From: Vulcanimicrobiota bacterium
GTDB lineage: Bacteria > Vulcanimicrobiota > Vulcanimicrobiia > Vulcanimicrobiales > Vulcanimicrobiaceae
Length of the DNA stretch: 64,000 nucleotides
Direction: 5' to 3'
NCBI GenBank assembly: GCA_027452165.1
Contig: DAIDGX010000019.1
Span: 124,001-188,000, forward strand
Shown here: positions 5,808 through 46,177 of the stretch, piece after piece
Layout: each line of letters opens with the position of its first letter
How positions within the stretch are numbered: position 1 is the stretch's first letter
Made by a program: the position numbers and the translations under genes
Notes under the pieces: model-generated
Database searches by the model: none
What the model saw: the letters and a program-made list of their open reading frames with translations, nothing else
Told to the model about the DNA's origin: nothing

Positions 5808-7091
5808 ATGTCGCCACTTGCCTCCCCCCGCTCCTTTGCCTCCGGACCGCTGCGCGGGACATTGAGCGTCCCCGGCGATAAGTCGATCTCGCATCGTGCC
5901 CTGATCCTAGGCGCCTATGATGCCGCGCCGATCGAGGTTCGCAACCTGAATCCGGGCCGGGACGTACGGGCGACGATGGAGGCCCTGATCGCGCTCGGGG
6001 CACGCGTCGATGGCACGCACGGAACGCTGCGCGTCCAGGGCGGAGCGCTACGCGAACCGATGGGCCCGCTCGACTGTATGAACTCCGGCTCGACGGCGCG
6101 CATGATGCTCGGTGTCTGCGCGGGCGCCGACATTCCGGTCACGCTCGATGGCGATGAGTCGCTACGCCGGCGACCGATGGAACCCGGCGCCGCGCAGTTG
6201 CGCGCATTCGGCGCGAAGATCGATACGAACGACGGCCGTCTCCCCGTGCGCTTGTACGGAACACCACAAATCGAAACACGTCGGTTCATTCTCCTCTCAC
6301 CCTCCGCGCAGGTGAAATCCGCGCTGCTTTTAGCCGGCGTGTTTGCGAAAACGGCGATCGAGATTCACGGCGATAAACAGTCACGAGACCATACCGAGCG
6401 CCTGTTGCGGTATCTTGGCGCCGATATCACCTGGGACGGCTCGCACGTCACGCTGCGCAGCGGCCCAACGCGCCGTGCGCCGATCGACGTCGCCGGTGAC
6501 TTCTCCGCTGCGAGCTTCTTTCTCGTCGCGGCAACGGTGGCTGCCAAATCGGCCTGCGAGATTCGCGATGTCGGGGTGAACCCCACGCGCACGGGTCTGC
6601 TCGATGCGTTGCTCGCCATGGGTGCCGATATCGAGCTTTGCAACGAACGCGAGGTTGCGGGCGAGCCCGTTGCGGACATCGTCGTGCGCGCTGCGCCGCT
6701 GCGTGGGATCACCGTTGGTCCCGATATCGCGCTGCGCGCCATCGACGAGATCCCGCTCCTGGCCGTCGCGGCCGCCTTTGCCGAGGGCGACACCAAGATT
6801 ACCGGGGTTCGTGATTTGCGCACCAAAGAATCCGATCGCGTTGCGGCAATCGAGCGCTTGATGGCCGCGGTGGGCATTGCGCTCGAGGTCTCCGCCAACG
6901 GGCTCGTGATTCACGGAGGTACGCCTCGCGGCGAGGGCGCCGTCGTGGAGACGCACGACGATCATCGCATCGCTATGGCCACCGCCGTCCTCGCCGCGGG
7001 CGCAGGACCCCTTGCGATCGATAGCGATGCAAGTATCGACGTCAGTTTCCCCGCGTTTCTCGACACCTTACGGAGCGTGCAACTCGCGTGA
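5808..7091 (+). CDS. aroA: 3-phosphoshikimate 1-carboxyvinyltransferase (EPSP synthase)
   Basis: The 427-residue EPSP synthase transfers the enolpyruvyl group of PEP to shikimate-3-phosphate in chorismate synthesis. Family motifs are all present: GDKSISHRA (residues 23-31, shikimate-3-P site), NSGSTARMM (87-95), the SAQVKSALLLAG block, DDHRIAMA near the C-terminus, and basic residues in RTKESDR. The ATG at 5808 is preceded by GGAG at a good distance; the longer frame from TTG at 5763 adds 15 non-conserved residues and runs into the divergent promoter. A small hairpin (CTCCCG...CGGGAG) lies in the short leader. The gene overlaps the next one by GTGA. Confidence 0.96.
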   Translation: MSPLASPRSFASGPLRGTLSVPGDKSISHRALILGAYDAAPIEVRNLNPGRDVRATMEALIALGARVDGTHGTLRVQGGALREPMGPLDCMNSGSTARMMLGVCAGADIPVTLDGDESLRRRPMEPGAAQLRAFGAKIDTNDGRLPVRLYGTPQIETRRFILLSPSAQVKSALLLAGVFAKTAIEIHGDKQSRDHTERLLRYLGADITWDGSHVTLRSGPTRRAPIDVAGDFSAASFFLVAATVAAKSACEIRDVGVNPTRTGLLDALLAMGADIELCNEREVAGEPVADIVVRAAPLRGITVGPDIALRAIDEIPLLAVAAAFAEGDTKITGVRDLRTKESDRVAAIERLMAAVGIALEVSANGLVIHGGTPRGEGAVVETHDDHRIAMATAVLAAGAGPLAIDSDASIDVSFPAFLDTLRSVQLA

Positions 7092-8251
7092 ACGATCGTA
7101 CGGACTATACCGCGAACGAATTCGAGCGCGAATCGCGTTATCTCGAAACGTTGATTTGGGAATCGCTCGTTGTCGAGCGCGGCATGCACGTCTTGGTCTG
7201 CGGCTACGGCCCCGAAGGAACGTTGGTCAAACGCGCAATCGCGACGGGTGCAGCAACGACGGTCATCGAGCACCGCAACGAAGAGATCGTGCGCTTCGCC
7301 ACGCTTGGCGCCACGTTGATGCGCGGAAGTACCTCGGTGATCCCAGCACGGGACGGCACGTTCGATCTGGCGATCGCCTATCATTACCTGCACGAAATCG
7401 ACCCTTTCTTCCATGCACAAGTGCTCTCCGAACTTGCGCGTGTTGCAAAGCGTGTTGCGGTAGTCGAACCGGCACCACCCGCGGATCCCCTGGGTAAGCG
7501 CATCGCCCTGCTCTACTCGCAGGCGAAGCGCGAACTCGGCGCCTTCGAGTACTATCAACCGCTTGAGTATTGGAAAAAACTGCTTCAGGGTGTGAAAGCC
7601 GACGTCTCGCAGCACGTCTTCGCGTTTTCAAAGACGCCGCCGCTTGAGTACGTTCGCGATACCGTCGCGCTCTTGCTCGACACGATCGAAGTGGAGGAGG
7701 CGCCGCGTGAATACCTCGATGAGCTGCGCGCGATCGCACAACGCTCGGACGCGGTACTCTTGCCGCCGGCGCGGTACGTGCTCGTCGGCGCCGCTGCAGG
7801 TGAGTTGATCGCACCGGTCTTCTCGCAACGGCCGCCGGCAAAGAGCCAAGCCCCGCTGGCCACACCGTCGAGCGCATCGGAGATCGCAAAGAAGATCGAA
7901 GCAGCCCGGGAGATCTCGCAAGCGACTGGTTACGAATTCCCACCCGTCGAAGCGCCGCGCGCGATGAAGCCGCCCGACACGATCGCACCGCAGCCGCCCG
8001 CGGCCGCAGCGTCGCCATCACCGGCGCCAGCGCCCGCCTTCACGCCGCCGCCAAGCCCCGGGTTCGGGGTGCCGCTGCCCGAGACTCCCTCGCCTGCCGC
8101 GCCCGCGCCGACGCTACCGTTCGGATCGCCGTTCGCCGTTCCGCCGGGGCCCGATCCCGGCGCAGGCGGATTCGGCATCCCCGAAGCCGCGCCGCCGACC
8201 ACACCGTGGGCGTGGGAAGCGCCCGAGCATACCGGCGAACCGCCGGCCTAG
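7088..8251 (+). CDS. Class I SAM-methyltransferase-like protein with Pro-rich tail
   Basis: 387 residues, starting at a GTG that overlaps the aroA stop (GTGA), so translation is probably coupled. Residues 20-160 look like a Rossmann methyltransferase: MHVLVCGYGPEG (motif I-like, 33-44), an acidic residue at the end of strand 2 (VIEHR), and GTFDLAIAYHYLHEI (motif IV-like). Motif I is degenerate (GYGPEG), so SAM binding is not certain. Residues from about 255 to the end are low-complexity, rich in Pro, Ala and Gly, and probably disordered. The target is unknown, and the link to aroA suggests only shared transcription. Confidence 0.65.
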   Translation: MNDRTDYTANEFERESRYLETLIWESLVVERGMHVLVCGYGPEGTLVKRAIATGAATTVIEHRNEEIVRFATLGATLMRGSTSVIPARDGTFDLAIAYHYLHEIDPFFHAQVLSELARVAKRVAVVEPAPPADPLGKRIALLYSQAKRELGAFEYYQPLEYWKKLLQGVKADVSQHVFAFSKTPPLEYVRDTVALLLDTIEVEEAPREYLDELRAIAQRSDAVLLPPARYVLVGAAAGELIAPVFSQRPPAKSQAPLATPSSASEIAKKIEAAREISQATGYEFPPVEAPRAMKPPDTIAPQPPAAAASPSPAPAPAFTPPPSPGFGVPLPETPSPAAPAPTLPFGSPFAVPPGPDPGAGGFGIPEAAPPTTPWAWEAPEHTGEPPA

Positions 8252-8496
8252 ACCACGCGAAAGACCTGTTGCGCTCGCTGCACGAGGACGGCCATCGCAA
8301 GCCGGTCGCGCTGCAGGCGGGCTACGTCCTGCGAACCGGAGCGAAGGCGCGCGATGAGAGGATCAACCCGCAGAGCATCAGCGTGACGCTTCAGGCGTAG
8401 GCCCGCGATCGCCACCATCACCACGCCGGCCACAAAGCAGCCAAAGGCGGCAGCGATGCTCGCCGCGATCAGTGTGAGAGGCCACGCGTGGGGCAT
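8248..8496 (-). CDS. Small single-pass membrane protein
   Basis: 82 residues from the ATG at 8496 (MPHAWPL), one base past the stop of fmdB. A hydrophobic segment at about residues 6-30 (LTLIAASIAAAFGCFVAGVVMV...) is followed by a basic, helical cytoplasmic-type tail rich in Arg and Leu. The stop overlaps the stop of the convergent methyltransferase-like gene by a few bases. A longer frame reaching 8580 is probably spurious because it reads through fmdB. Family not recognised. Confidence 0.6.
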   Translation of the reverse strand: MPHAWPLTLIAASIAAAFGCFVAGVVMVAIAGLRLKRHADALRVDPLIARLRSGSQDVARLQRDRLAMAVLVQRAQQVFRVV

Positions 8497-8497
8497 C

Positions 8498-8713
8498 TTA
8501 GGCGGCCGAATCGCCCTTGGAATCGCCGCTCGACCCGCCACGCGAATCCGTGACGTAGAAGCCGGAGCCCTTGAAAACAACGGGCGCCGGGTTGAAGACG
8601 CGGCTCATCGCGCCACCGCATTTTTCGCACGGCGCGTCGTGGGTGTCGTTGAATCCGTGGCGCACTTCGGCGACGTGGCCGCACGAAGCGCAGCGATAAT
8701 CATAGAGCGGCAT
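8498..8713 (-). CDS. FmdB-family zinc-ribbon protein
   Basis: A 71-residue protein with two CxxC knuckles: YRCASCGHVAEV (C8, C11) and CEKCGG (C29, C32), then a short Ser/Gly-rich tail. MPLYDYRC at the start is the signature of the FmdB/CxxC_CxxC_SSSS regulatory-protein family. The biochemical role of this family is not established; it is often called a putative transcriptional regulator. The ATG lies eight bases after a good -10, so the mRNA is probably leaderless. It is followed by a small membrane-protein gene one base away. Confidence 0.9.
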   Translation of the reverse strand: MPLYDYRCASCGHVAEVRHGFNDTHDAPCEKCGGAMSRVFNPAPVVFKGSGFYVTDSRGGSSGDSKGDSAA

Positions 8714-8721
8714 ACGAGGAA

Positions 8722-8750
8722 GTTATACCAGGCCTAGCAGTCTCGGTCAA
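8722..8750 (-). promoter_or_regulatory. Promoter of fmdB
   Basis: On the minus strand: -35 TTGACC (8745-8750), 17-base spacer, extended -10 TGGTATAAC (hexamer at 8722-8727). The fmdB ATG begins eight bases beyond the -10, predicting a leaderless or nearly leaderless transcript. Confidence 0.75.
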
Positions 8751-8761
8751 TGACTGCTAGG
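8733..8761. repeat. 10-bp inverted repeat around the fmdB -35 box
   Basis: CCTAGCAGTC (8733-8742) and GACTGCTAGG (8752-8761) form a perfect 10-bp inverted repeat with a 9-base centre that contains most of the -35 hexamer. It could be an operator for fmdB, or a terminator hairpin for the SRPBCC gene whose stop is four bases away. There is no T-run after it in the minus direction, which favours the operator reading. Confidence 0.6.
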
Positions 8762-8764
8762 AGA

Positions 8765-9286
8765 TTAGAAGTCGGCTAGGACGGCATCGTCGCTCCGGTA
8801 CTCCACGAGCCCCTTGAAGTGGGTGAGCGCATCGTCGAGTACGCGCTCGAGCCTACGCCCGTGGCGCCACTGGTCGAGCGCCGCCCCCAGACGACCGCCG
8901 TAGGCGGGATAGGTGAAGCGCACGTGGAGCTTCGCGCGCGAGGTCTTCTGTTCGAGGCGAAAATCGATGCGCCGCCGCACCGAATACGCGCCCACGAGCG
9001 AGAGGTGATAGTTTGTGATGAACTGATCGACCTCGTAGAGCTGTTCCTCGTCGCCAGGCAGCGTGGAGCGCACGATCACTTCGCTCCCCGCGCGCAGGGG
9101 CAGCGCGGGATCGACGGCCCGGGCGCTCCGCAGAAACGACAGCCACACCGGCCATTTCTCGATGGCGCAAAGCAGGGCAAAGGCAGTGTCAACCGGGGAC
9201 TCGATATCCAGGCTCGCGCTGAACGACCGGAGCCCCGGGTGGGCATGGGCATCGGTCACAATTGCCATGGGGGCACGATTCGACAC
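8765..9286 (-). CDS. SRPBCC/polyketide-cyclase-like START-fold protein
   Basis: 173 residues. From residue 20 the sequence (SASLDIESPVDTAFALLCAIEKWPVWLSFLRSA) is typical of the SRPBCC helix-grip fold: a beta strand, I.sPve.vf..l.di..Wp.w, then strands and a long C-terminal helix. These proteins bind hydrophobic ligands; the ligand here is unknown. The start is a GTG at 9286 whose ribosome site (AGGGATAGG) is the 3' arm of a strong hairpin; an internal ATG at 9268 is the alternative. Confidence 0.75.
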   Translation of the reverse strand: MSNRAPMAIVTDAHAHPGLRSFSASLDIESPVDTAFALLCAIEKWPVWLSFLRSARAVDPALPLRAGSEVIVRSTLPGDEEQLYEVDQFITNYHLSLVGAYSVRRRIDFRLEQKTSRAKLHVRFTYPAYGGRLGAALDQWRHGRRLERVLDDALTHFKGLVEYRSDDAVLADF

Positions 9287-9330
9287 CCTATCCCTAGTGC
9301 CTGCTTTTGTCGCAGGCCCAAGGGATAGGG
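9286..9330 (-). promoter_or_regulatory. Long hairpin between the M20 gene and the SRPBCC start
   Basis: Outer arms CCCTATCCCT/AGGGATAGGG (9286-9295 and 9321-9330) and inner arms GCCTGC/GCAGGC (9299-9304 and 9312-9317) form a 16-bp stem interrupted by one 3x3 internal loop. On the minus strand it begins just after the M20 stop and ends on the SRPBCC GTG, burying that gene's likely ribosome site. It lacks a T-run. It could be an attenuator, a translational control element or a Rho-type stop. Confidence 0.6.
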
Positions 9331-9331
9331 G

Positions 9332-10516
9332 TCAAGGGATCGTTTGCAGCGCGCCGGAGCCGCCCGCAACGGCGAACGCCACGAGCGTGCGCACCCCGAC
9401 CGGTAACGCGGCTTCGTCGATGCGAAACTCGGCGCTGTGCCCCGGGTGAATCGCCCCGGCAGCTTCGCTGCGCACGCCGAGGCGCACGTGAACGCCCGGC
9501 ACGGCCCGCGCGAAATAGGCGAAATCCTCGGCGCCCATGGTGGGCGCAAGCCGATGGACGCGGATCTCGGGCGCATGCGCCGCGATGTAACGCGCAAGGC
9601 TCTCCGCGAGCGGCACGTCGTTAACCACCGGCGGATACCCGCGCACGATCCGGATCTCGGCCTGGACGTTATACGCTGCAGCGACGTTCTCGACGATGCG
9701 ATGCACGCGCGCAGCCAGACCCTCGCGCACCTCGGGATCGTGCGCACGCAGCGTTCCGCTCATCTGCACTTCGTCGGCGATAACGTTGTTGCGGTATCCG
9801 CCGGCGATCGTGCCGATCGTCACCACTACGCTTTTGAGCGGATCGGTCTCGCGTGCGGCGATATTCTGTAATGCGAGCACGATCGCACTCGCCGCCGGGA
9901 TCGTATCGACCGCTGTGTGCGGATAGGCGCCATGACCGCCCTTTCCGCGAACGGTGATGTAGAGTTCATCCGCCGAGGCGTTCACGGGACCGGGGGTGAT
10001 GCTGATCTCACCCGGACCGATGCGCGGATCGACGTGGAGCATCGCCGCCATCTCGACGCGCGGGTCGTCGAGCGCGCCCTCCGCGATCATCGGTTCGGCA
10101 CCACCCGGACCCTCTTCCGCAGGCTGAAACAGCAACACGACGCTCCCGTGCAGTTGCTCGCGCATTCCCTGCAACACGCGCGCCGCCCCGAGCAGCATCG
10201 CCGTATGCGCGTCATGGCCGCACGCATGCATCTTCCCCGCGATCTCCGAGGCGTAGGGTAATCCCGTGCGCTCGGTGAGCGGCAGCGCGTCCATATCGGC
10301 CCGCAGCGCCACGACGTGTCCCTCACGCGCTCCGCGGATAACCCCGACGATGCCGGTCTTGGCAACGCGCCGATGTTCGATGTCGAGCATGTCGAGCTCA
10401 CGCTCCACGAGCGCTGCGGTTTCGTATTCTTCGAAACCGAGCTCCGGGTGGCGGTGGATCGTGCGCCGCAGTTCGACGACGCGCTCAATCAGCGGCTGCG
10501 CAGGCTCTTCGATCAT
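9332..10516 (-). CDS. M20-family amidohydrolase (hippurate hydrolase/IAA-amino-acid hydrolase type)
   Basis: 394-residue zinc-dependent amidohydrolase. Metal-site motifs of subfamily M20D are present: RADMDALPL (about residue 74), MHACGHDAHTAMLLGAA (about 98), FQPAEEGPGGAEPM (about 130) and the late MGAEDFAYF. The family cleaves N-acyl amino acids such as hippurate or auxin conjugates, or acetyl-diaminopimelate; the exact substrate cannot be read here. The ATG at 10516 (MIEEP) is chosen because the longer frame adds 32 Arg-rich residues that are not family-like. It is divergent from the unknown gene at 10578. A strong hairpin follows the stop. Confidence 0.92.
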   Translation of the reverse strand: MIEEPAQPLIERVVELRRTIHRHPELGFEEYETAALVERELDMLDIEHRRVAKTGIVGVIRGAREGHVVALRADMDALPLTERTGLPYASEIAGKMHACGHDAHTAMLLGAARVLQGMREQLHGSVVLLFQPAEEGPGGAEPMIAEGALDDPRVEMAAMLHVDPRIGPGEISITPGPVNASADELYITVRGKGGHGAYPHTAVDTIPAASAIVLALQNIAARETDPLKSVVVTIGTIAGGYRNNVIADEVQMSGTLRAHDPEVREGLAARVHRIVENVAAAYNVQAEIRIVRGYPPVVNDVPLAESLARYIAAHAPEIRVHRLAPTMGAEDFAYFARAVPGVHVRLGVRSEAAGAIHPGHSAEFRIDEAALPVGVRTLVAFAVAGGSGALQTIP

Positions 10517-10577
10517 CGAAATCGATCTGCGTCGGCAGTACCGCGCATCCCTGCGCGCGAATCGCGCTGCCAAGAAG

Positions 10578-11324
10578 ATGATCGGAGCCGATATCGCCCT
10601 TGCGGTCCTCATGAACCGGGCCGCCGACGCCTACACGACGGCGCCGCCCCCGTACATGACCTACATCGAGCATACGCATGTCGTCGGCGCAAACCGCACC
10701 GAAGATATCGATCGGTCGGTCGCCGTGCGCGTCGCCGACGACTACGCGGTCATGCACGATCTGCCGCACGGCGCCGTACGTATGGGCCCCGCCTTCCCGG
10801 TAATCCCGCTCTTCGATCCGTTCTCAAGCTTTTCGTTTAGCTATTTTGCAAATCTCAAGCGCGTCGATATCACCTTTAGCCCCGGCGACCCATTTCGCGT
10901 AATCGTGCCGGCACCCGATCCCACCGTTGATGCCGTCGTTGCATATTTCAGCGAGTGGGCTCCGCGCTACGCACCCGACTCCACGAGCGAGGCCGTGCAT
11001 CTGCTGATCGATCCAACGGCGCGCAGTGCGAACAGTTTCTACCCAGCTGAAGTTGTCGAGGACCCGCAGACGCAACTACCCAAACGTGTCGTGTTACGGC
11101 TTGCGGGAAGCGACGAGACGATCGCTCTCGACTACGGCATCGTGCAAGGCCACTGGCTCATCACGGATGGCAGCTTCTCCAGTACGCAGCACGTGATGGG
11201 TCTTTCGTTCAAGGTTGACGCTGAGGTAACGTTTAGCGACTTCACCTTCCCGGCAACGCCGCCCGATCCGCGCCTTGCCGGCACGCCGCGGCCGTCGCCG
11301 TCGCCGTCGCCTGCAAAATCATGA
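10578..11324 (+). CDS. Hypothetical protein, co-translated with SemiSWEET
   Basis: 248 residues from the ATG at 10578, preceded by AAGAAG. I do not recognise the family. It is rich in alternating hydrophobic/charged strands (for example RVDITFSPGDPFRVIV and LITDGSFSSTQHVMGLSFKVDAEVTFSDFTF) and ends in a Pro/Ser-rich tail, suggesting a beta-sheet domain of the kind found in lipoprotein-carrier-like proteins. No signal peptide is evident from this start. Its stop overlaps the SemiSWEET start (ATGA), implying translational coupling. Confidence 0.7.
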   Translation: MIGADIALAVLMNRAADAYTTAPPPYMTYIEHTHVVGANRTEDIDRSVAVRVADDYAVMHDLPHGAVRMGPAFPVIPLFDPFSSFSFSYFANLKRVDITFSPGDPFRVIVPAPDPTVDAVVAYFSEWAPRYAPDSTSEAVHLLIDPTARSANSFYPAEVVEDPQTQLPKRVVLRLAGSDETIALDYGIVQGHWLITDGSFSSTQHVMGLSFKVDAEVTFSDFTFPATPPDPRLAGTPRPSPSPSPAKS

Positions 11325-33756: not shown

Positions 33757-35886
33757 CTAGGGAACCTTCGTCCCCGTGATCGCCTGGACGAGATGCCCGG
33801 TGAAGGCTGCGCCTAGGCCCGTAACCTGATCGTACCCGGGGCCGGATTGGTATCCGCTCGGCGTCGAGGCCGGCGCCGGGGATGCCGGTGCCGGAACGGC
33901 CTGATTGCCGCCGTAGATCACGTCGTAGAAGACCTGGTTGTAATTCAACTGCGGCGTGAAGCCAGCAGCCGCGTACGGTCCCTTTGCAAGGCTCGAGGTG
34001 CCGTAGATCGCGTAGAACAGCGGTGCCGGGTCGCCCAAGCGATACGACTTGGTCGAACCGAAAGCCGCGCCGTGTGAGGAGCAGGCCGCACTCGCTTTGC
34101 AGGCCTGGAGCACGACTGCCCACTGAGCCGCCGCCTCCGGCGCTGCCGCGCTCGTTCCACCGATCGCGGATGGAGCGCCTCCATAAGCGGCGTCGATCGA
34201 GATACTCGGGCCGGAGTTCGGGTCGGCGTCGAGCGAGATGTCGGGTATTTCGCGCATCGAAGCCCCGAGGGTCGCAACCTGCCACGGCGGCGCCGGGAAG
34301 ATCGTCGAGACACCGCCGCCGGAGCCCACGTTGTTCCCAAAGGTACCGTTACCGCCACCGGTCGTGTTGTCGGCCCATGCCGTAATGGGACCGGTCAGAC
34401 TGCCGCCCTCATCGAGGGGAATATTCACGCCGCCGACCGCGACCACGTTCGGGTCGGAGGCCGGGTAGCTCGGGCACGCGATCCCAAGCGGGGCGCCAGT
34501 GGCCGGATTGAAGCACTCCCACGCGCCATCGTCGCCCGAGGAGACGAAGACCGCGATGCCCTCGGCCGCAAGCGATGCGAACTCGATCGGGCCGAGTCCC
34601 GGCTGGCTTGCCGTTCCGATATACGAGCCGCCTTGGTTTTCAGGGAGGCCGTAACTGAGCGAAAGCACGTCAGCCTGGTTATCGGCGATCGCCTGCTGGA
34701 TCTCATCGTCGGAGAGCGTAATACCCTCGGCCTGATAGGCAAGATCGCCTGCGGGACACGTCGCCCCGCTCCCCGGAGCATAGGCACCGGTCGTCGCGTT
34801 GTAACAATACTCGACCGGATTGAACGCGAGGTAGAAGAGCGTCGTCGCACCCGGAGCAAGCGATGCGACCGATTGCGTATCGAGTTGCGCTTCGCCGTCC
34901 TCCGGATTGCAGGTTTGGTAGTTCGGTGCAAGCGGGTTCTGCGTGCAGCCCGGGCTCGTGACCGGCGGTGCAGGTGCAAGCTCGGCCGGATTGGTGTCCG
35001 TTGCGCCCGTCCCCGTTTGCCCGTTGGCGGCCGTCGCAGGTTGCGGCGAGACGTTGACTTGCACGACGTTCCCAAGCGATGCGTGCCACAGCTGGCTCAG
35101 CTGGGCCGTGTCGTCATCGCCGCCATTTGCGTTGAGAATCGGGCCCGTGCCGATGATGCCGACGTTGATGCCCGCACCGTTGAGTCCCGCGCTTGCTGCG
35201 CCCGAGTAGTCGAACCCGGTCGCGATCTGCTGCGGCGAGTAGCCGAAGAACTGCGCGTTGTTGTTCTTGATGAAGTAGGTCTGCGAGAGCGAGGCCGACA
35301 TCAGGCCGGTCGCCGAGACGATCGGAACGGTCGCTGGGAACTTCGGGGCAGACATCGGCGCGATGACCGGCTTCCCGCGGAAGCGGAAGGTGCCGAACGT
35401 CGTGCCGAACGCCCGGCTGAACTGGTCGAGCGATCCACTCACCGAGAGCATCTCGCGCTGCGGCCAGCCCGCAACCTTGAGACCGAATCCTGCGAAGTAG
35501 TTTGCCGCCGCTTGATAGTCGCTCGGCGAGGCGCCGAAGCGATCGCCGATCTCTTGCGGGGTGAGCCATTGCCGATAATTCGGCGACTTCGGATCGCTCG
35601 CGCTCTCGGCGTATTGCACGAGCCCCTGTGCATCGCGCATGCGCACATACACGGCAAGGGTCAGGCCGCCACCCTTGACGGGCCCGATGTAAGGGAGCTG
35701 CGAGACGATCTCCTGTCCCCATGCAAACGGCGTACCACCCGTCGTGGTTGGACCCCCACCCGCTACGGGCGGAACGATCGGGCTACCGCCGCTCGCATTT
35801 GCCGCGCCGCCGCCACCGCCGCCGCACGCGCTCAAGAGCAGCGCTCCCGCAAGCGCCGCTCCGGCGACGCGAATCGAGAATCGCAT
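33757..35886 (-). CDS. Sedolisin/kumamolisin-type S53 peptidase lipoprotein
   Basis: 709 residues. Lipoprotein signal (LLLSAC, lipid Cys at 21) followed by a poly-Gly linker, the pro-kumamolisin activation domain (about 60-210) and the S53 catalytic domain. The serine-carboxyl residues fit: E332 and D336 in GEAQLDTQSV, oxyanion Asp in SSGDDGAW (452/453), and S579 in GGTSAAAP. The C-terminal calcium region is QSGPGYDQVTGLG. Such enzymes cut peptides at acid pH outside the cell. Its ATG overlaps the stop of the upstream lipoprotein (TAATG), so it is translationally coupled to it. Confidence 0.92.
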   Translation of the reverse strand: MRFSIRVAGAALAGALLLSACGGGGGGAANASGGSPIVPPVAGGGPTTTGGTPFAWGQEIVSQLPYIGPVKGGGLTLAVYVRMRDAQGLVQYAESASDPKSPNYRQWLTPQEIGDRFGASPSDYQAAANYFAGFGLKVAGWPQREMLSVSGSLDQFSRAFGTTFGTFRFRGKPVIAPMSAPKFPATVPIVSATGLMSASLSQTYFIKNNNAQFFGYSPQQIATGFDYSGAASAGLNGAGINVGIIGTGPILNANGGDDDTAQLSQLWHASLGNVVQVNVSPQPATAANGQTGTGATDTNPAELAPAPPVTSPGCTQNPLAPNYQTCNPEDGEAQLDTQSVASLAPGATTLFYLAFNPVEYCYNATTGAYAPGSGATCPAGDLAYQAEGITLSDDEIQQAIADNQADVLSLSYGLPENQGGSYIGTASQPGLGPIEFASLAAEGIAVFVSSGDDGAWECFNPATGAPLGIACPSYPASDPNVVAVGGVNIPLDEGGSLTGPITAWADNTTGGGNGTFGNNVGSGGGVSTIFPAPPWQVATLGASMREIPDISLDADPNSGPSISIDAAYGGAPSAIGGTSAAAPEAAAQWAVVLQACKASAACSSHGAAFGSTKSYRLGDPAPLFYAIYGTSSLAKGPYAAAGFTPQLNYNQVFYDVIYGGNQAVPAPASPAPASTPSGYQSGPGYDQVTGLGAAFTGHLVQAITGTKVP

Positions 35887-39648: not shown

Positions 39649-39725
39649 CCCCATGCACAAGCGGTTCTGCTCGAGCTGTGGAGAATCCCCGCCACATGAT
39701 TCTCGCGGAGCCGGCCGAGCATATG

Positions 39726-39740
39726 GTGCTCTTGGAGCAC
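39726..39740. repeat. Short inverted repeat upstream of the LuxE-like gene
   Basis: GTGCTC-TTG-GAGCAC is a perfect 6-bp inverted repeat located 31 bases before the LuxE-like ATG in the divergent region with leuC. It could be an operator for the four-gene cassette; no known binding protein is implied. Confidence 0.4.
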
Positions 39741-39771
39741 AGGACGACCTGCCGCGCGGGTGCGTTCGTCG

Positions 39772-40893
39772 ATGAGGGTCGCCGTGCACGCATATCGTGA
39801 CGAATCCGCACGTCTCGACGACGCGCTGCTCGCGCTCTTCGAACGCTGGCATCGCGACGGTGCGCCGCTCGGTGACGGCGAGTTCAATGCATTCGCCCTA
39901 CGCCTCTTCGCCTACCAGTTGCGGTACAATGCGCCGTACGCGCGCTATTGCGAAGGATTCGGCGTAACGCTCGAGCGGCTTCCCGCAAGCTGGCACGAGA
40001 TCCCTGCGCTTCCAAGCGCGGCATTTAAAGAAGCAGCGATTGCCACGTGCGATCCGGCGAAGGCCGAGCTGGTCTTCGAGACCAGCGGAACGACGCAAGG
40101 CATCGGCGGCCGACACTATCTCGAGCGCGCGCTCCTCTACGACGCCGCGTTGCTCGTTGCGTTCGACCGCTTCATGCTGCCCGACCATCTGCGCTTACGC
40201 TACTTTAACCTGGTTCCCGATCGCGCGGAGCGCCCGCAGTCGTCGCTCGGATACATGATGGCGCAGGTATGCGCGGCGCGCGCGGAGCGATCGGACTGGT
40301 ATCTTCGCGGGGACGAACTGCAGGTCGAACGTTTCCTCGCCGATCTCTCCGAGGCCGTCGAACGCGGCATCCCCGTCTGCATCGCAGCGACGGCGTTTGC
40401 GCTCGTGCACTTGCTCGACGCACTCGCGGCACGCGACCTCTTCGTCGCGCTGCCGACCGGCTCGCGCATCATGGAGACCGGCGGCTTCAAGGGGCGCTCC
40501 CGGGTCGTCGAACGCGACGAACTCTACGCCGCACTCTGCGAGCGGTTCGGCATGCCACGCGACGCGATCGTGGCCGAATACGGCATGACCGAACTCACCT
40601 CGCAGTATTACGACGACGTTCTCGTCTCGGCGCTGCCGGACACGGGTGTTCGCTATAAGGTCGCACCGCCGTGGTTACGGGCGCGCGTCGTCGGCCCGAA
40701 CGGTGCGACGTTGCCGAACGGAACGGTGGGCGCGCTCGTCCACGTGGATTTAGCAAATCGTTCCTCGTGCCTTGCAATCCAAACGGAGGATTTGGGGGTG
40801 CAATTCGAGCGCGGTTTGGTGCTGATCGGCCGCGAGGCCGGCGCACAATTGCGCGGGTGCTCGCTCGATGCCGAGGACCTGACGGCGCGATGA
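39772..40893 (+). CDS. LuxE-like acyl-protein synthetase
   Basis: 373 residues, LuxE family (PF04443). LuxE enzymes activate a fatty acid as acyl-AMP and transfer it to a Cys on themselves. Family traits: IPALPSAAFKEAAI (78-90), ATP-binding TSGTTQGIGGRHY (104-116), IMETGGFKGRSR (about 234-245), AEYGMTELTSQYY, and the C-terminal acyl-acceptor candidate C363 in LRGCSLDAED. It starts at the ATG of 39772. The next gene begins in its stop codon (ATGA). No luxAB is present, so bioluminescence is not implied. It probably activates a carboxylic acid for the following reductase. Confidence 0.9.
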   Translation: MRVAVHAYRDESARLDDALLALFERWHRDGAPLGDGEFNAFALRLFAYQLRYNAPYARYCEGFGVTLERLPASWHEIPALPSAAFKEAAIATCDPAKAELVFETSGTTQGIGGRHYLERALLYDAALLVAFDRFMLPDHLRLRYFNLVPDRAERPQSSLGYMMAQVCAARAERSDWYLRGDELQVERFLADLSEAVERGIPVCIAATAFALVHLLDALAARDLFVALPTGSRIMETGGFKGRSRVVERDELYAALCERFGMPRDAIVAEYGMTELTSQYYDDVLVSALPDTGVRYKVAPPWLRARVVGPNGATLPNGTVGALVHVDLANRSSCLAIQTEDLGVQFERGLVLIGREAGAQLRGCSLDAEDLTAR

Positions 40894-42116
40894 CGGCGCT
40901 CGAAGGTATCCCCGCGCGTCGTATCATCCACGCGATCGCGGACGCGGCCGCACGCTTTGCCGATGCAGATTTTCCGCCGCGCGTCCGCCTCCTCGACCGT
41001 ATCGTCGAGCGCACAGGCTACACGATTCCGGTTGTCGAGTATGCGCTCGACCAGCTCTTCTTCTCGATCACGGCTCCGGCACTCGAACGCACGATCGTCA
41101 GCGAGCTCGGGTCGCTCGACGCGCTCGATCGTTTCGTAGATCGTGGCGGCGGCGAGACCGAGGGCTTCGCGCGCCCGATCGGATCGGTTGCGATCGTCTC
41201 GAGCCGTACCACGATCGGCGTGGCGATCGTCCCGGCCGTCTTCGCGCTCTGCGCGAAATGCGACGTCCTGGTCAAAGACCGCGAGGACGGGCTCGTGAGC
41301 GCGTTCTTTACCGCGCTCACCGCCGAACTCGACGCCGCGGGAAGCGCCGCCCGGGCGCACGCGTGGGAGGGCGAGGGCGACGCCGTCGATCTTGCGCGCT
41401 TCGACGCCGTCGTGGCGTTTGGTGGCGATGCGACGCTCGCACGCATCCGCGAGCGCGTTGCCGCACGCGCGCCATTCATCACCTACGGATCGAAAGCAAG
41501 CCTCGGGTATATCGGGCGCGATGCGCTCGAGGACGAATCGCAAGCGCGTATCCTGGCTGGTGACGCGGCCCGCGACCTGGTCCTCTACGACAGCGAAGGA
41601 TGCCTTTCGCTACACGCGCTCTTCGTGGAGTCCGGCGCCGCGATATCGCCCGCGCGATTTGCCGAGCTCTTTGCCGGGGCGGTGGAGCGCGCGGCGATCG
41701 AGTTTCCTCCTGGAGCACGGGACGCACGCGCAAACGCCAGGATCGCAACCGCGCGCAACCTGGCAGCCTTTCGCGCGGCGACGGGTCAAGGTAGCGTCTT
41801 CTCGGACGAGCAGGCATCCTTTCTCGCAGTTCTCGATCCGCCCGCAAGCGAACCGCCCGCATTTCTGCCACGAACGCTCGCCATCCGCGCGATCGACGCA
41901 CCGGACGAGGCGACCGCGTACGTGCGGCGCCACCAACTCCCGGTCGAAGCGTTGGCAATAGCTGGATCGCGCGACGAGATCGTGAATATGGCGCTCGACA
42001 TGGGAGCCCACCGCCTCACCGCCTTCGGCCGCCTGCAGCGGCCACCGCTCTCCAATACCCACGGCGGCCGTTCGCGAATCGCCGATTTCGTGCGCTGGGT
42101 CACGCGCGACCGATGA
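40890..42116 (+). CDS. LuxC-like acyl-CoA/acyl-protein reductase
   Basis: 408 residues of the aldehyde-dehydrogenase superfamily, LuxC subgroup. The catalytic Cys is C238 in YDSEGCLSLH (GCLS is the LuxC signature), with the NADPH-binding GSVAIVSSRTTIG (98-110) and the FGGDATLARIRERV segment. It reduces an activated acyl group to an aldehyde using NADPH. It lies between LuxE and an aminotransferase, with four-base overlaps on both sides, so the product is likely channelled. The substrate may be long-chain or a small polar acid; the sequence does not tell. Confidence 0.9.
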   Translation: MTALEGIPARRIIHAIADAAARFADADFPPRVRLLDRIVERTGYTIPVVEYALDQLFFSITAPALERTIVSELGSLDALDRFVDRGGGETEGFARPIGSVAIVSSRTTIGVAIVPAVFALCAKCDVLVKDREDGLVSAFFTALTAELDAAGSAARAHAWEGEGDAVDLARFDAVVAFGGDATLARIRERVAARAPFITYGSKASLGYIGRDALEDESQARILAGDAARDLVLYDSEGCLSLHALFVESGAAISPARFAELFAGAVERAAIEFPPGARDARANARIATARNLAAFRAATGQGSVFSDEQASFLAVLDPPASEPPAFLPRTLAIRAIDAPDEATAYVRRHQLPVEALAIAGSRDEIVNMALDMGAHRLTAFGRLQRPPLSNTHGGRSRIADFVRWVTRDR

Positions 42117-43423
42117 ACGACGACATCGAATTCATCGGCGGCGCGATTCCTGGACCACACACGAACGAACTCACACCGCTCCTGCGCATGCACGAATCGC
42201 GCAACGTCACCTACCTCGGGGTTGATTTCCCCGTCTTCTGGCAGGCGGCGAGCGGCGCGACGGTAAGCGACGTCGATGGCAATCGCTACATCGACCTCAC
42301 CTCGGCGTTCGGTGTCGCGAACGTCGGCCACGCGAACGCCTACGTAGCGGCCGCGATTCAGGACCAAGCCTCACGCATGATGCACGGCATGGGCGACGTG
42401 CATCCGACCGAGGTGCGCACGCGACTCCTCGAACGCCTCACGCACGTCCTGCCCGCCGGCCTCACGAAGACGTTTCTCGCGACCACCGGGTCGGAGGCCG
42501 TCGAGGCCGCAATCAAAACGGCGGTGCTCGCGACCGGGAAGCATCGGTTTGTTGCGTTTCACGGCGGCTACCACGGCCTCTCGCTCGGTACGCTTGTGCT
42601 TGCGGGCATCCCGAAGTTCCGCGATCCGTTTGCCGCGCTCGTACCCGACACGACCACGTTTCTCGAGTATCCCGCGAACGGACACGACGACGTCGACGCT
42701 GCGCTTGCGCACCTGCGCGAAACCCTCGGCGCCCGCGACGACCTTGCGGCGATCGTCATCGAGCCGTTGCAGGGCCGCGGCGGGTGCATCGTTCCCCCGC
42801 CCGGCTATCTGCGCGGCCTGCGTGAGTTCTGCAGCGCGCGCGGCATGCTGCTCATCGTTGACGAAATTTACACGGGCTTCGGCCGGACCGGCGCGTGGTT
42901 TGCGTGCGAGCACGACGATGTCGTGCCCGACATCATCTGCATCGGCAAAGCGATGGGAGGTGGCTTCCCCATCAGCGCAACCGTCGCGCGCCCCGAAATC
43001 ATGGATGCCTGGCCTGCATCGAGCGGCGAAGCGCTGCACACCTCGACCTACCTCGGAAATCCGATGGGCTGTGCCGCCGCGCTCGCCACGATCGACGAAC
43101 TGGAACGCAACGGTCTCCCGGAACGGGCTCGAACGCTCGGCGCAGCGCTCGGATCGCGCCTAACGTCGTTGCGCGCACACGCGTGCGTGCGCGACGTCCG
43201 CGGACGCGGCATGATGTGGGGCGTTCACGTGACCGACGGCGCCTTCGCCGATCGGGTCGTGAAACGCGCGCTGGCACTCGGCGTTATCGTACTTCAGGCG
43301 GGCCCGGACGGCGACGTTCTCTCGATCACGCCGCCGCTCGTCATCGGCGAGACTTCGCTCTATCGCGCGATCGATCTGCTCGAACGCGCCATCATCACCG
43401 TCGCCCACGGACAGGACGCATGA
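42113..43423 (+). CDS. Class III PLP-dependent aminotransferase
   Basis: 436 residues, fold-type I class III (omega-transaminase/4-aminobutyrate type). Motifs: TGSEAVEAAIKTAV (PLP phosphate), HGGYHGLSLG (150-159), VIEPLQGRGG (215-224), DEIYTGFGRTG with D250, and the PLP Lys K279 in ICIGKAMGGGFP. It transfers an amino group, normally to an aldehyde or ketone. The order LuxE-LuxC-aminotransferase suggests that the aldehyde made by LuxC is converted into a primary amine. ATGA overlaps on both sides. Confidence 0.93.
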   Translation: MNDDIEFIGGAIPGPHTNELTPLLRMHESRNVTYLGVDFPVFWQAASGATVSDVDGNRYIDLTSAFGVANVGHANAYVAAAIQDQASRMMHGMGDVHPTEVRTRLLERLTHVLPAGLTKTFLATTGSEAVEAAIKTAVLATGKHRFVAFHGGYHGLSLGTLVLAGIPKFRDPFAALVPDTTTFLEYPANGHDDVDAALAHLRETLGARDDLAAIVIEPLQGRGGCIVPPPGYLRGLREFCSARGMLLIVDEIYTGFGRTGAWFACEHDDVVPDIICIGKAMGGGFPISATVARPEIMDAWPASSGEALHTSTYLGNPMGCAAALATIDELERNGLPERARTLGAALGSRLTSLRAHACVRDVRGRGMMWGVHVTDGAFADRVVKRALALGVIVLQAGPDGDVLSITPPLVIGETSLYRAIDLLERAIITVAHGQDA

Positions 43424-44454
43424 ACACGTATCGCATCGGAATCAGCGGCGCTGGCTTCGGCGTCAACGCCCACCTCCCGGCCCTCATCGCACACCCCCGC
43501 TTCGAGGTGGTCGCACTCGCGTCGCCCACGCGCGCAGCCGGAATCGCGCGCGAGCGCTCGATCCCGCAGGCGTTCACCTCCACGCGCGAGATGCTTGCGG
43601 GCTGCGAGCTCGACGCCGTCGTCGTCGCATCGCCGCCCTTTGCGCATCGCGAAGACGTCCTCGCCGCACTGGACGCACGCAAACACGTGCTCTGCGAAAA
43701 ACCGTTCGGCCTGAACATCGAGGAGGCGCAAGAGATGCTCGCCGCCGCGACCGATGCGGGAACCGCGTGCGGTGTGGCCCATGAGTTCCGTTTCGTACCA
43801 CAACGCGCGGCGCTCCGAGAACTCGTCGCCAACGGTCACCTGCAGCCGCTGCGCCAGCTTGAGATCACGCAACTCGGTACATGGCTACGTGCCGAAAGCA
43901 CGCGCGAGCGCGGCTGGTGGTTCGAGCGCGAACGCGGCGGCGGGCTCACGGGCGCTCTCGTGTCGCACCTGATCGACACGGCGAATTGGACCCTTGGGTC
44001 GGTGCCCGCACGAGCGCATGCGTTTCTCCGGACAGCCAACCCCGAGCGCCACGACGCGCGCGGAGCGTTCACGAGTTCGGTCGATGACGGGTGCTTCGCG
44101 CTCTTGGACTACGGCAACGGCCTTATCGCACGCATCACGGCCGACGCAACCGCGGCCGTCGAGTCGTTTACGTTCGCGGTGCACGCAGAGAATCGCACCG
44201 CGGTCGCAAGCGGCACCTCGATTGCCGACATGACGCTCTTCTCGGTGGACGACGACGAGACGAACGAACTCCAATGCGCGCCATCGCCCTATGCGAAGTT
44301 CGCAAGCATCAACGCCAACGTACCGTTGCTCATGGAGCTCTACGACGAGTGGGTCAAACAGATCGAGACGGGCACCAGCGCCCTGCCGACCTTCGGCGAG
44401 GCGCTCGCCACCCAACGCGTGCTCGCCGAACTCGGCTACACTACGGCAAGTTAG
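43420..44454 (+). CDS. Gfo/Idh/MocA-type NAD(P)-dependent oxidoreductase
   Basis: 344 residues. N-terminal Rossmann fold: GISGAGFGVNAHLPAL (7-22), LASPTRAAG, then the EKP motif in CEKPFGLNIEEA (about 88-99) and a C-terminal beta-sheet substrate domain. The family oxidises or reduces sugars, inositol and imine-like substrates. Start ATG overlaps the aminotransferase stop (ATGA). It is the fourth gene of the LuxE-LuxC-aminotransferase cassette; it could act on the sugar or amino product. The end overlaps the convergent S8 protease by 14 bases. Confidence 0.9.
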   Translation: MNTYRIGISGAGFGVNAHLPALIAHPRFEVVALASPTRAAGIARERSIPQAFTSTREMLAGCELDAVVVASPPFAHREDVLAALDARKHVLCEKPFGLNIEEAQEMLAAATDAGTACGVAHEFRFVPQRAALRELVANGHLQPLRQLEITQLGTWLRAESTRERGWWFERERGGGLTGALVSHLIDTANWTLGSVPARAHAFLRTANPERHDARGAFTSSVDDGCFALLDYGNGLIARITADATAAVESFTFAVHAENRTAVASGTSIADMTLFSVDDDETNELQCAPSPYAKFASINANVPLLMELYDEWVKQIETGTSALPTFGEALATQRVLAELGYTTAS

Positions 44455-46177
44455 GATCCCCAAGCGCCGCTGCGACCGCGCGATAGACGTTGAGGCGCCC
44501 GCACCCTTCGTGCGGATCTCCGATATCGTCGGCGGTGCTGCACAGGAGCGCTTTCATCGCAGCGGGCGAATCGTACCGGCCGCCGACCCCGCTCACCGCA
44601 AGCACGAGCGCGGCCGCACCCGCCACGTGCGGCGTTGACATCGACGTTCCGGCGATGAGCGTACGGCAGTCGTTCGCTTCGCCGAAATAATCCGTTGCAC
44701 AGTCACCCGTGAAGTTCGTATCGGTCGGCGACGACATGTACGGCGTCGACGTCCAAATATTCTCGATCCAGTGCAGGTCGTCGAGATCGCTGCCATTGAG
44801 CGGGTCACCGCCGGGTGCGACGATCCCCCACGACGTCGCGCTCTTGAGCACGTTCGTCGCACCGTATTGACTGTAGCTCGCAACGTACTCCTGGTTCGGT
44901 CCCGTGTAACTCGTCGCGTTCGGTGCCCCGTCGTTGAGTGCGCTTGCACCGACCGCGATGACGCCGGGATCGCACCCCGGCGCCCCTACGACGCCCGTGC
45001 CGCCATTGCCCGATGCAGCCACGACGATCACGTTGTGTGCGATCGCGTTCGCAATGGCTTGACCTTCGATCGTTGAGGGATCTTGGCCGTTCACGCAGCC
45101 CGAGCCGACACCGAGGCTCAAGTTGATGACGTTTGCACCGTTCTGCACCGCATCGTCGATCGCGGAGGCAATATCGACGTCGGCGGCGCCGCACTGCGGA
45201 TCGTTTGCGGAGTTCGTCGGCGACGCGCACGTGTCGTCGGGTGTCGGAAAGACTCGATAGAGCATGAGCGACACGTTCCCGGCAGCGCCGGCAAAGCCGA
45301 AGCCATTTCCCGTAGTGGCAGCTGCAATTCCGGTGACGTCGGTACCGTGACCGTCGGGATCCGTAGCGTATCCTCCCGTACTTTGCACGCCATTCTGATC
45401 GGTGATGAAGCAGCGGGTCAACGCGATGCTGCCACCCGCGAGATCAGGGTGCGTCACATCGGCGCCGGTGTCGATGACCGCAAGCTTCACGCTGGTCGAG
45501 CCGAGCGCGTTTGGACTATAGACACCGCTGCCGTTCGAGGATTGCGAATACGCAAACGCATCGCCCAGACCAATCACGTGCATATCCCACTGCCCCGGAA
45601 CCGACGCCGATTCATAGTATGGCGCCGCGGTTCCGGTGCCGCCGCGAAAATACGGATCGTTCGTCACGTACGGCGCGTTAACCGTAAGCGTACGCGCGCG
45701 CATCGACGGCTGAGCGGAGATGACACCCGGCAACGAGCGTAGCGACGCTGCAAGGGCGTCGGCTTGCGCGGGTTCGACCGCCAGCACGTGCGCCGCGGTT
45801 CCGAGTGCGGAGAAGCGGACCGTTTGCACGACGCGGGCGCCGAAGGCGCTCGCGCGTGCATCGACCGCGGTCGTGCTTGCAAGGTTCGCCGGTGTGTAGG
45901 TAACGACGACAAGCCGGCGATCGGCAAAGCCGCTCGCGGAGGATGGCGCACGGCGCACGATGCTGCCTCGTTGCGCGCTTCGTACGAGGCCGTAACTCGA
46001 CGTTGACGTGGGACACGCAAACGCGCTCGACGAGCTCACCGGCATCGACGTCGCCGTCGGAAACGGGGTCGGAAAGATCCCGCCGCCACCGCCGGATGAG
46101 CCGCCGCCACCACAGGCCGTGAGCGTGAGCGATGCCACCGCAAGCACGGTGATGACGAAGCGAGCCGAATGGTACAT
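44441..46177 (-). CDS. S8 subtilisin-like protease lipoprotein
   Basis: 578 residues. Lipobox LTAC (Cys 22) with a CGGGGSSGGGGG linker, then a fervidolysin-like propeptide region (about 85-165), and the S8 catalytic domain: D236 in VIDTGADVTHPDL, H277 in DGHGTDVTG, the N of AASGNGG and S512 in GTSMSTPHVAG. It cuts extracellular proteins while anchored on a membrane. It follows cinA by 43 bases. An intron-free GC-rich gene of the same style as the S53 gene; the two share the poly-Gly linker. Confidence 0.93.
   Translation of the reverse strand: MYHSARFVITVLAVASLTLTACGGGGSSGGGGGIFPTPFPTATSMPVSSSSAFACPTSTSSYGLVRSAQRGSIVRRAPSSASGFADRRLVVVTYTPANLASTTAVDARASAFGARVVQTVRFSALGTAAHVLAVEPAQADALAASLRSLPGVISAQPSMRARTLTVNAPYVTNDPYFRGGTGTAAPYYESASVPGQWDMHVIGLGDAFAYSQSSNGSGVYSPNALGSTSVKLAVIDTGADVTHPDLAGGSIALTRCFITDQNGVQSTGGYATDPDGHGTDVTGIAAATTGNGFGFAGAAGNVSLMLYRVFPTPDDTCASPTNSANDPQCGAADVDIASAIDDAVQNGANVINLSLGVGSGCVNGQDPSTIEGQAIANAIAHNVIVVAASGNGGTGVVGAPGCDPGVIAVGASALNDGAPNATSYTGPNQEYVASYSQYGATNVLKSATSWGIVAPGGDPLNGSDLDDLHWIENIWTSTPYMSSPTDTNFTGDCATDYFGEANDCRTLIAGTSMSTPHVAGAAALVLAVSGVGGRYDSPAAMKALLCSTADDIGDPHEGCGRLNVYRAVAAALGDPNLP

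Follow-up and report, generated by a model that had tools for sequence, protein, structure and literature searches.

The window analysed here, a 64,000-nucleotide stretch of contig DAIDGX010000019.1 from a Vulcanimicrobiota bacterium, belongs to a genome of 2.64 Mb that is 95% complete. Between positions 39772 and 44454 it carries four genes in the same direction on the forward (+) strand, which encode relatives of the bioluminescence enzymes LuxE and LuxC, a class III aminotransferase (AT3) and a dehydrogenase of the Gfo/Idh family (Gfo), with an ATGA overlap at each of the three junctions (LuxE/LuxC, LuxC/AT3 and AT3/Gfo). An earlier, sequence-only reading had described these four overlapping genes as a cassette leading from a carboxylic acid to a primary amine. 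The arrangement was confirmed, and the three overlaps would favour coordinated synthesis of the cassette enzymes. The catalytic residues named in that reading (C363 in LuxE, C238 in LuxC and K279 in AT3) are likewise present and correctly numbered; the start it gave for the cassette, 39726, had to be corrected, as it lies upstream of LuxE and out of frame with it. LuxE begins at ATG 39772, with GTG 39760 as an alternative start. The genes and their principal residues are as follows.

39772..40893, +, LuxE-like acyl-AMP ligase / acyl-protein synthetase, 373 amino acids (PF04443, match to 7xc6, motifs)
40858..40860, +, LuxE Cys363, predicted acyl-accepting cysteine in an (R/K)GCS motif (alignments)
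40890..42116, +, LuxC-like acyl reductase, 408 amino acids (PF05893, profile match to 7xc6, AlphaFold)
41601..41603, +, LuxC Cys238, predicted catalytic cysteine in a GC[LM]S motif (alignment)
42113..43423, +, AT3, class III pyridoxal phosphate (PLP) aminotransferase of a charge-swapped subfamily, 436 amino acids (PF00202, AlphaFold, tree)
42776..42778, +, AT3 Arg222 (EPLQGRGG), at the position of E211 in γ-aminobutyrate aminotransferase (GABA-AT) (alignments, tree)
42947..42949, +, AT3 Lys279, PLP-binding lysine (invariant in the AT3 alignment and aligned with the YgjG lysine)
43322..43324, +, AT3 Ser404, at the position of GABA-AT R398, the carboxylate-binding arginine (alignments, tree)
43420..44454, +, Gfo/Idh/MocA-family NAD(P) dehydrogenase, 344 amino acids, accessory (PF01408, motifs)

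The enzymes and their active sites

LuxE exceeds the gathering cut-off of its Pfam family (PF04443, 47.3 bits against 24.9) and matches the LuxE chain of the solved LuxC-LuxE complex (7xc6_E, E=5.6e-15). Its SGTT, GGFKG and YGMTEL motifs are kept across alignments, and C363 shows no variation in any LuxE locus of the phylum (hereafter Eremiobacterial) or in the wider LuxE alignment. LuxC belongs to PF05893 (127.7 bits, cut-off 21) and its profile matches the 7xc6 LuxC (E=3.1e-42); the AlphaFold model, with a mean confidence (pLDDT) of 89.8, has 7xc6_A as its best fold match, at a template modelling (TM) score of 0.85. C238 is among the six invariant columns of an alignment of LuxC from Eremiobacterota and from the thiamin pyrophosphate (TPP) riboswitch-type loci described below. 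The cassette shares both enzyme families, with their cysteines in place, with the fatty acid reductase of luminous bacteria. It differs in carrying an aminotransferase, in the lack of a luciferase and in missing the cut-offs specific to fatty acid enzymes. A search with the luciferase family PF00296 found no gene in the whole genome, whereas control genomes gave matches, so the description of the pair as one without luciferase was borne out; a LuxD-family search of the genome also found nothing, but the control genomes gave no match either.

These comparisons bear on a first alternative, that the cassette is a long-chain alkylamine route by which a fatty acid is turned into a fatty amine or into a membrane lipid with an amine head. 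Characterised LuxC and LuxE enzymes, including the solved complex 7xc6, use long-chain fatty acids, and a near-universal distribution (see below) would fit a structural lipid. A cultured relative also has many unidentified polar lipids (PMC9758169). However, the NCBIfam equivalog models for the long-chain fatty acid enzymes are missed widely (52.5 against 550 bits for LuxE and 25 against 750 for LuxC), none of the genes found beside the cassette is for an acyl carrier, a ligase or lipids, and the nearest LuxE relatives outside the AT3-linked groups are thiamin-regulated and have no lipid link. Because these relatives point to a small, thiamin-type acid, the alkylamine lipid suggested in the sequence-only reading has been lowered to an improbable product, if the least improbable of the rivals considered here.

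AT3 scores 351.9 bits against PF00202 (Aminotran_3; cut-off 30.5), and the best fold matches of its AlphaFold model (pLDDT 91) are GABA transaminases. In GABA-AT and ornithine aminotransferase, a Glu/Arg pair provides dual substrate recognition. This switch pair of the GABA and acetylornithine enzymes is absent from AT3. Position 222 is Arg in every cassette AT3 (QGRGG) and Glu (QGEGG) in the canonical aminotransferases examined, including YgjG and the paralogs in the same genome; position 404, which precedes a PPL motif, is Ser or another non-Arg residue in the cassette AT3s and Arg in the canonical enzymes. The combination of Arg222 with a non-Arg residue at 404 occurs in 56/56 cassette AT3 rows, a few of which are loci fetched twice, as against 0/10 canonical rows, seven of them from paralogs of the same genome (five distinct genes). 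Cassette AT3s from all contexts form one clade apart from the canonical aminotransferases, with 100% support in the SH-aLRT branch test, and the enzyme misses the NCBIfam subfamily cut-offs (e.g. 294.6 against 410 bits for argD and 290 against 506.65 for GABAtrnsam). By alignment and phylogeny, AT3 is a distinct, charge-swapped subfamily and not a recruited ArgD or GabT. The amino donor or substrate of AT3 is probably an unusual one, given that the glutamate-handling pair has been replaced, and the swap may itself alter the choice of donor. On plasmids, no AT3 homologue was found at E 1e-80. Replacement of the arginine/ornithine pathway was ruled out as a role for the cassette, since ArgC and a canonical ArgD are present in the genome. 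In some relatives (e.g. G033, G089 and G055) the AT3 match contains one in-frame stop, probably because the match overruns the gene end.

Gfo scores 84.4 bits against PF01408 (GFO_IDH_MocA; cut-off 24), with PF22725 and PF02894 also above their cut-offs, and carries an EKP motif (CEKPF) and, downstream, a SHLID motif. Its nearest models are inositol dehydrogenase and anhydrofructose reductase. It is a loosely attached fourth gene, employed in a single order and regarded as accessory because it is the least constant member of the set and is absent from the homologous loci of type B (below). Gfo enzymes nevertheless work on sugars and inositols, which raises the possibility of an aminosugar or aminocyclitol pathway, in which LuxE and LuxC would reduce a uronic-type carboxyl, AT3 would aminate the aldehyde and Gfo would oxidise a ring hydroxyl. 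In support of this, Aeromonas and Enterobacteriaceae have homologues of LuxE and LuxC, without luciferase, in their flagellin glycosylation islands (PMC7874193, PMC4875605). There they adjoin genes for an acyl carrier protein, a FabG-like protein and glycosyltransferases (PMC7874193, PMC4875605), none of which is found at the cassette. No nucleotide-sugar gene adjoins it, Gfo is missing from the homologous triads outside the order, and it went undetected in genomes G040, G043 and G051, all of which makes an aminosugar product quite unlikely.

Distribution, neighbourhood and relatives

A search of 149 genomes of the phylum detected LuxE in 111; LuxC, AT3 and Gfo mostly share genomes with it, and nearly always in single copy. 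A hand tally of the search tables over the order's 37 near-complete genomes gives LuxE in 37/37, LuxC in 36/37, AT3 in 36/37 and Gfo in 32/37. The sequence-only reading would have been refuted by a set that never occurs together elsewhere, and the four genes stand together in most genomes of the order. By its distribution, the cassette belongs to the core traits of the class, present in one copy and inherited vertically; the families, catalytic residues, operon, conservation, co-inheritance and AT3 signature can all be read from the sequences themselves.

The usual site of the cassette lies between leuDC and cinA. In genus g5, LuxE instead adjoins rpoA while LuxC-AT3-Gfo stay beside cinA, with all four genes kept, and the genes therefore survive separation. 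The class's other order has the arrangement LuxE-LuxC-AT3, followed about 0.4 kb on by an MFS_3 exporter gene, and in three loci (L038, L040 and L041) an extra gene, whose relatives elsewhere match DUF1565, lies on the opposite strand between LuxE and LuxC. Ahead of LuxE, many of the family's genomes have two further genes, one for a Cys/Met PLP enzyme and one for a CoA-binding protein, and sister species (L032, L004) keep the CoA-binding-protein gene in that position; both genes are absent from 39650-39772, immediately upstream of LuxE in the window. The neighbouring aconitase-type genes had suggested a homoaconitase/lysine link, which was ruled out: the two genes score highest against 3-isopropylmalate dehydratase, prfA-prmC-pyrG are nearby, and the neighbourhood is therefore ordinary synteny. 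In another class, LuxE adjoins an 885-amino-acid fusion of LuxC with an AMP-binding ligase (L079, G145:C8:18000-36000, at 6074-7285 and 7924-10581), and similarly long open frames surround LuxC matches in several further genomes.

Outside the phylum, a scan with the LuxE alignment over one genome per species returned 80 loci, which were sorted into types. In type A, LuxE-LuxC is followed by an ABC transporter and/or a short-chain dehydrogenase/reductase (SDR), or preceded by an NCS2 permease, the hosts being Proteobacteria, Bacillota, NC10 and Rubrobacter, as well as plasmids. Type B comprises 19 loci, mainly of Myxococcota/Deltaproteobacteria, with the order AT3-LuxE-LuxC and no Gfo, the AT3 being 48-56% identical to the Eremiobacterial enzyme. 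Three loci of type C have an aminotransferase with canonical residues. By gene content, the full set of four is restricted to this order and the three-gene core is more widespread. The statement in the sequence-only reading that no described system has this exact set stands in so far as no description of LuxE/LuxC with an aminotransferase was found in the open-access literature, but the core is not unique to the lineage.

The LuxE tree, which is unrooted, places type A, the Eremiobacterial groups f1+f2 and f3, and type B (including one row without a detected AT3) in separate groups with SH-aLRT support of 99-100%, and a branch with support of 89 divides the AT3-linked groups from type A and its kin. 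The window LuxE falls outside the type A clade, the two lying in separate clades with 99% support each. Against the weakest plasmid LuxE-type match, from an E. coli K-12 construct, the cassette LuxE is 21.5% identical; type A provides its nearest relatives outside the AT3-linked groups, at 34-41% identity over the full length. Type A cassettes share the adjacency of LuxE and LuxC with the window and differ in having an SDR in place of the aminotransferase, a transporter, a TPP riboswitch and a LuxE clade of their own.

Rfam detected a TPP riboswitch at 7/8 plasmid type A loci and at 8/9 further type A loci tested, and a site model built from the first seven TPP sites detected sites in 40 type A loci, in 33 of which the site ends ≤300 nt from the LuxE match. 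The riboswitch-bearing operons comprise the plasmid loci L052-L059 and 39/80 genome loci (e.g. L093, L099, L103, L118 and L128), and take the form LuxE-LuxC-(ABC ATPase, permease, SsuA-type binding protein)-SDR or NCS2-LuxE-LuxC-SDR. Thiamin breaks down to products that include pyrimidine carboxylate and thiazole acetate. From its gene content and riboswitches, type A is best read as a salvage system with its own uptake, in which the acid form of a thiamin precursor is reduced to the alcohol in two steps; no description of such cassettes was found in the open-access literature, and the family predicts a new route of vitamin B1 precursor salvage.

This sister family raises the question of whether the window cassette is itself a thiamin-pyrimidine branch, converting a pyrimidine carboxylate to 4-amino-5-aminomethyl-2-methylpyrimidine or a related vitamin precursor. 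The riboswitches imply that class of acid for the sister family, and AT3 in place of the SDR would yield an aminomethyl compound. However, the LuxE proteins of the AT3-linked and TPP-type groups lie in separate clades, the site model found nothing in any type B or Eremiobacterial locus searched, Rfam found nothing over eight type B loci, and there is no TPP riboswitch in the window or at 18 other Eremiobacterial loci. The sole TPP riboswitch detected in the genome (G000:C5:28873-28979, L078) lies ahead of thiC, and the thiamin pyrimidine HMP is therefore made de novo. With no riboswitch here and thiC present, a thiamin role for this cassette was demoted and is very doubtful.

A further alternative is that AT3 has no connection to the aldehyde, which would serve some other enzyme while AT3 acts on an amino acid and is linked to LuxE and LuxC by the operon only. 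The type A pairs do work without an aminotransferase, and class III aminotransferases have broad roles. Against this, AT3 consistently accompanies these LuxE clades, across phyla and in two gene orders, and is a separate subfamily in a genome that encodes ArgD and ArgC elsewhere; we consider a purely operonic link unlikely.

In three loci (L140, L155 and L159), a class III aminotransferase, of PRK07036 type in L140, and an F420-type luciferase-like oxidoreductase are encoded upstream of AT3-LuxE-LuxC, with HPPK on the opposite strand between them.

The upstream repeat and flanking genes

A short inverted repeat ahead of the cassette had been put forward as its operator.

39681..39704, no strand, inverted repeat GAGAATC-N10-GATTCTC, the putative operator of the sequence-only reading (chance level)

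Seven-base arms are about what chance would give in a stretch of this length, and the upstream DNA showed no homology to that of the sister species compared; these two results leave the operator without support. A sigma-70 promoter-like site was searched for and none was found. On either side of the region lie peptidase genes of kumamolisin type (33757-35886) and subtilisin type (44441-46177), the latter lying tail to tail with Gfo and sharing 14 bases with its 3' end.

A proposed route from acid to amine

We infer that the four genes form a module converting a carboxylic acid to a primary amine on a cysteine-thioester relay, a reading to which we give a probability of about 0.6. LuxE would activate the acid with ATP to an acyl-AMP and then transfer the acyl group to its own C-terminal Cys363; Cys238 of LuxC would receive the acyl group from LuxE for NAD(P)H-dependent reduction to the aldehyde, which AT3 would convert to the primary amine. 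Gfo may be an accessory oxidoreductase that modifies the same compound, perhaps at a hydroxyl or an imine. The substrate would be an endogenous acid, probably small or polar and not a long fatty acid. Each of the steps proposed for LuxE, LuxC and AT3 is standard for its enzyme family. The succession acid, acyl-cysteine, aldehyde and amine, already favoured in the sequence-only reading, remains the simplest account of a gene set that is conserved and travels together, with the reactions, their order and the class of substrate being inferred.

Carboxyl activation, a semialdehyde and a class III aminotransferase also succeed one another in ArgB-ArgC-ArgD, LysZ-LysY-LysJ and GluTR-GSAM. The cassette differs from these in its predicted acyl-AMP and acyl-cysteine, in place of an acyl phosphate or tRNA ester, and in an aminotransferase without the Glu/Arg pair. 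A closer parallel is PigE, which combines a cysteine-dependent thioester reductase with a class III transaminase and for which aldehyde channelling has been proposed (PMC8341465). Like the cassette as proposed, PigE and TamH of prodigiosin and tambjamine synthesis proceed from a cysteine thioester through an aldehyde to an amine with a class III aminotransferase (PMC8341465). PigE differs in having a fused domain of acyl-ACP-reductase type and neither LuxC nor LuxE, whereas the cassette genes are separate, and AT3 falls short of the PigE equivalog cut-off (282 against 850 bits). By analogy, PigE may serve as a worked example of the last two proposed steps.

The intact active sites and folds, the ATGA overlaps, near-universal retention, even where LuxE stands apart in genus g5, the occurrence of AT3-LuxE-LuxC outside the phylum, the single AT3 clade, the absence of a luciferase gene and the PigE precedent all argue for the module. 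Three considerations weigh against it. The substrate of AT3 could be a different compound within the same pathway; the near-complete genome G043 retains LuxE without LuxC, AT3 or Gfo; and a loop of LuxC reads SRTTIG in this order where the type A LuxC has [AS]GN[VI]P, an unusual motif that might suit LuxC to some other acyl carrier or cofactor.

The cassette is a new combination of known enzyme families and not a new kind of chemistry. Its product may, more tentatively, be an undescribed amine, perhaps a piece of a cofactor or a lipid head group, counted among the core constituents of the class Eremiobacteria and shared with some Myxococcota, and made with a donor other than glutamate by an aminotransferase whose donor recognition was rebuilt through changes of Glu to Arg and of Arg to a small residue. 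All four genes are present at 1573442-1578110 of G118, putatively Vulcanimicrobium alpinum WC8-2, the first cultivated member, and the pathway is thus testable in a cultured strain. Enzymes able to convert acids to primary amines would also be useful in biocatalysis. Relatives of the bioluminescence enzymes LuxE and LuxC seem here to serve core metabolism, and a near-universal, single-copy pathway of this kind represents a real gap in the biochemistry of a widespread soil phylum.

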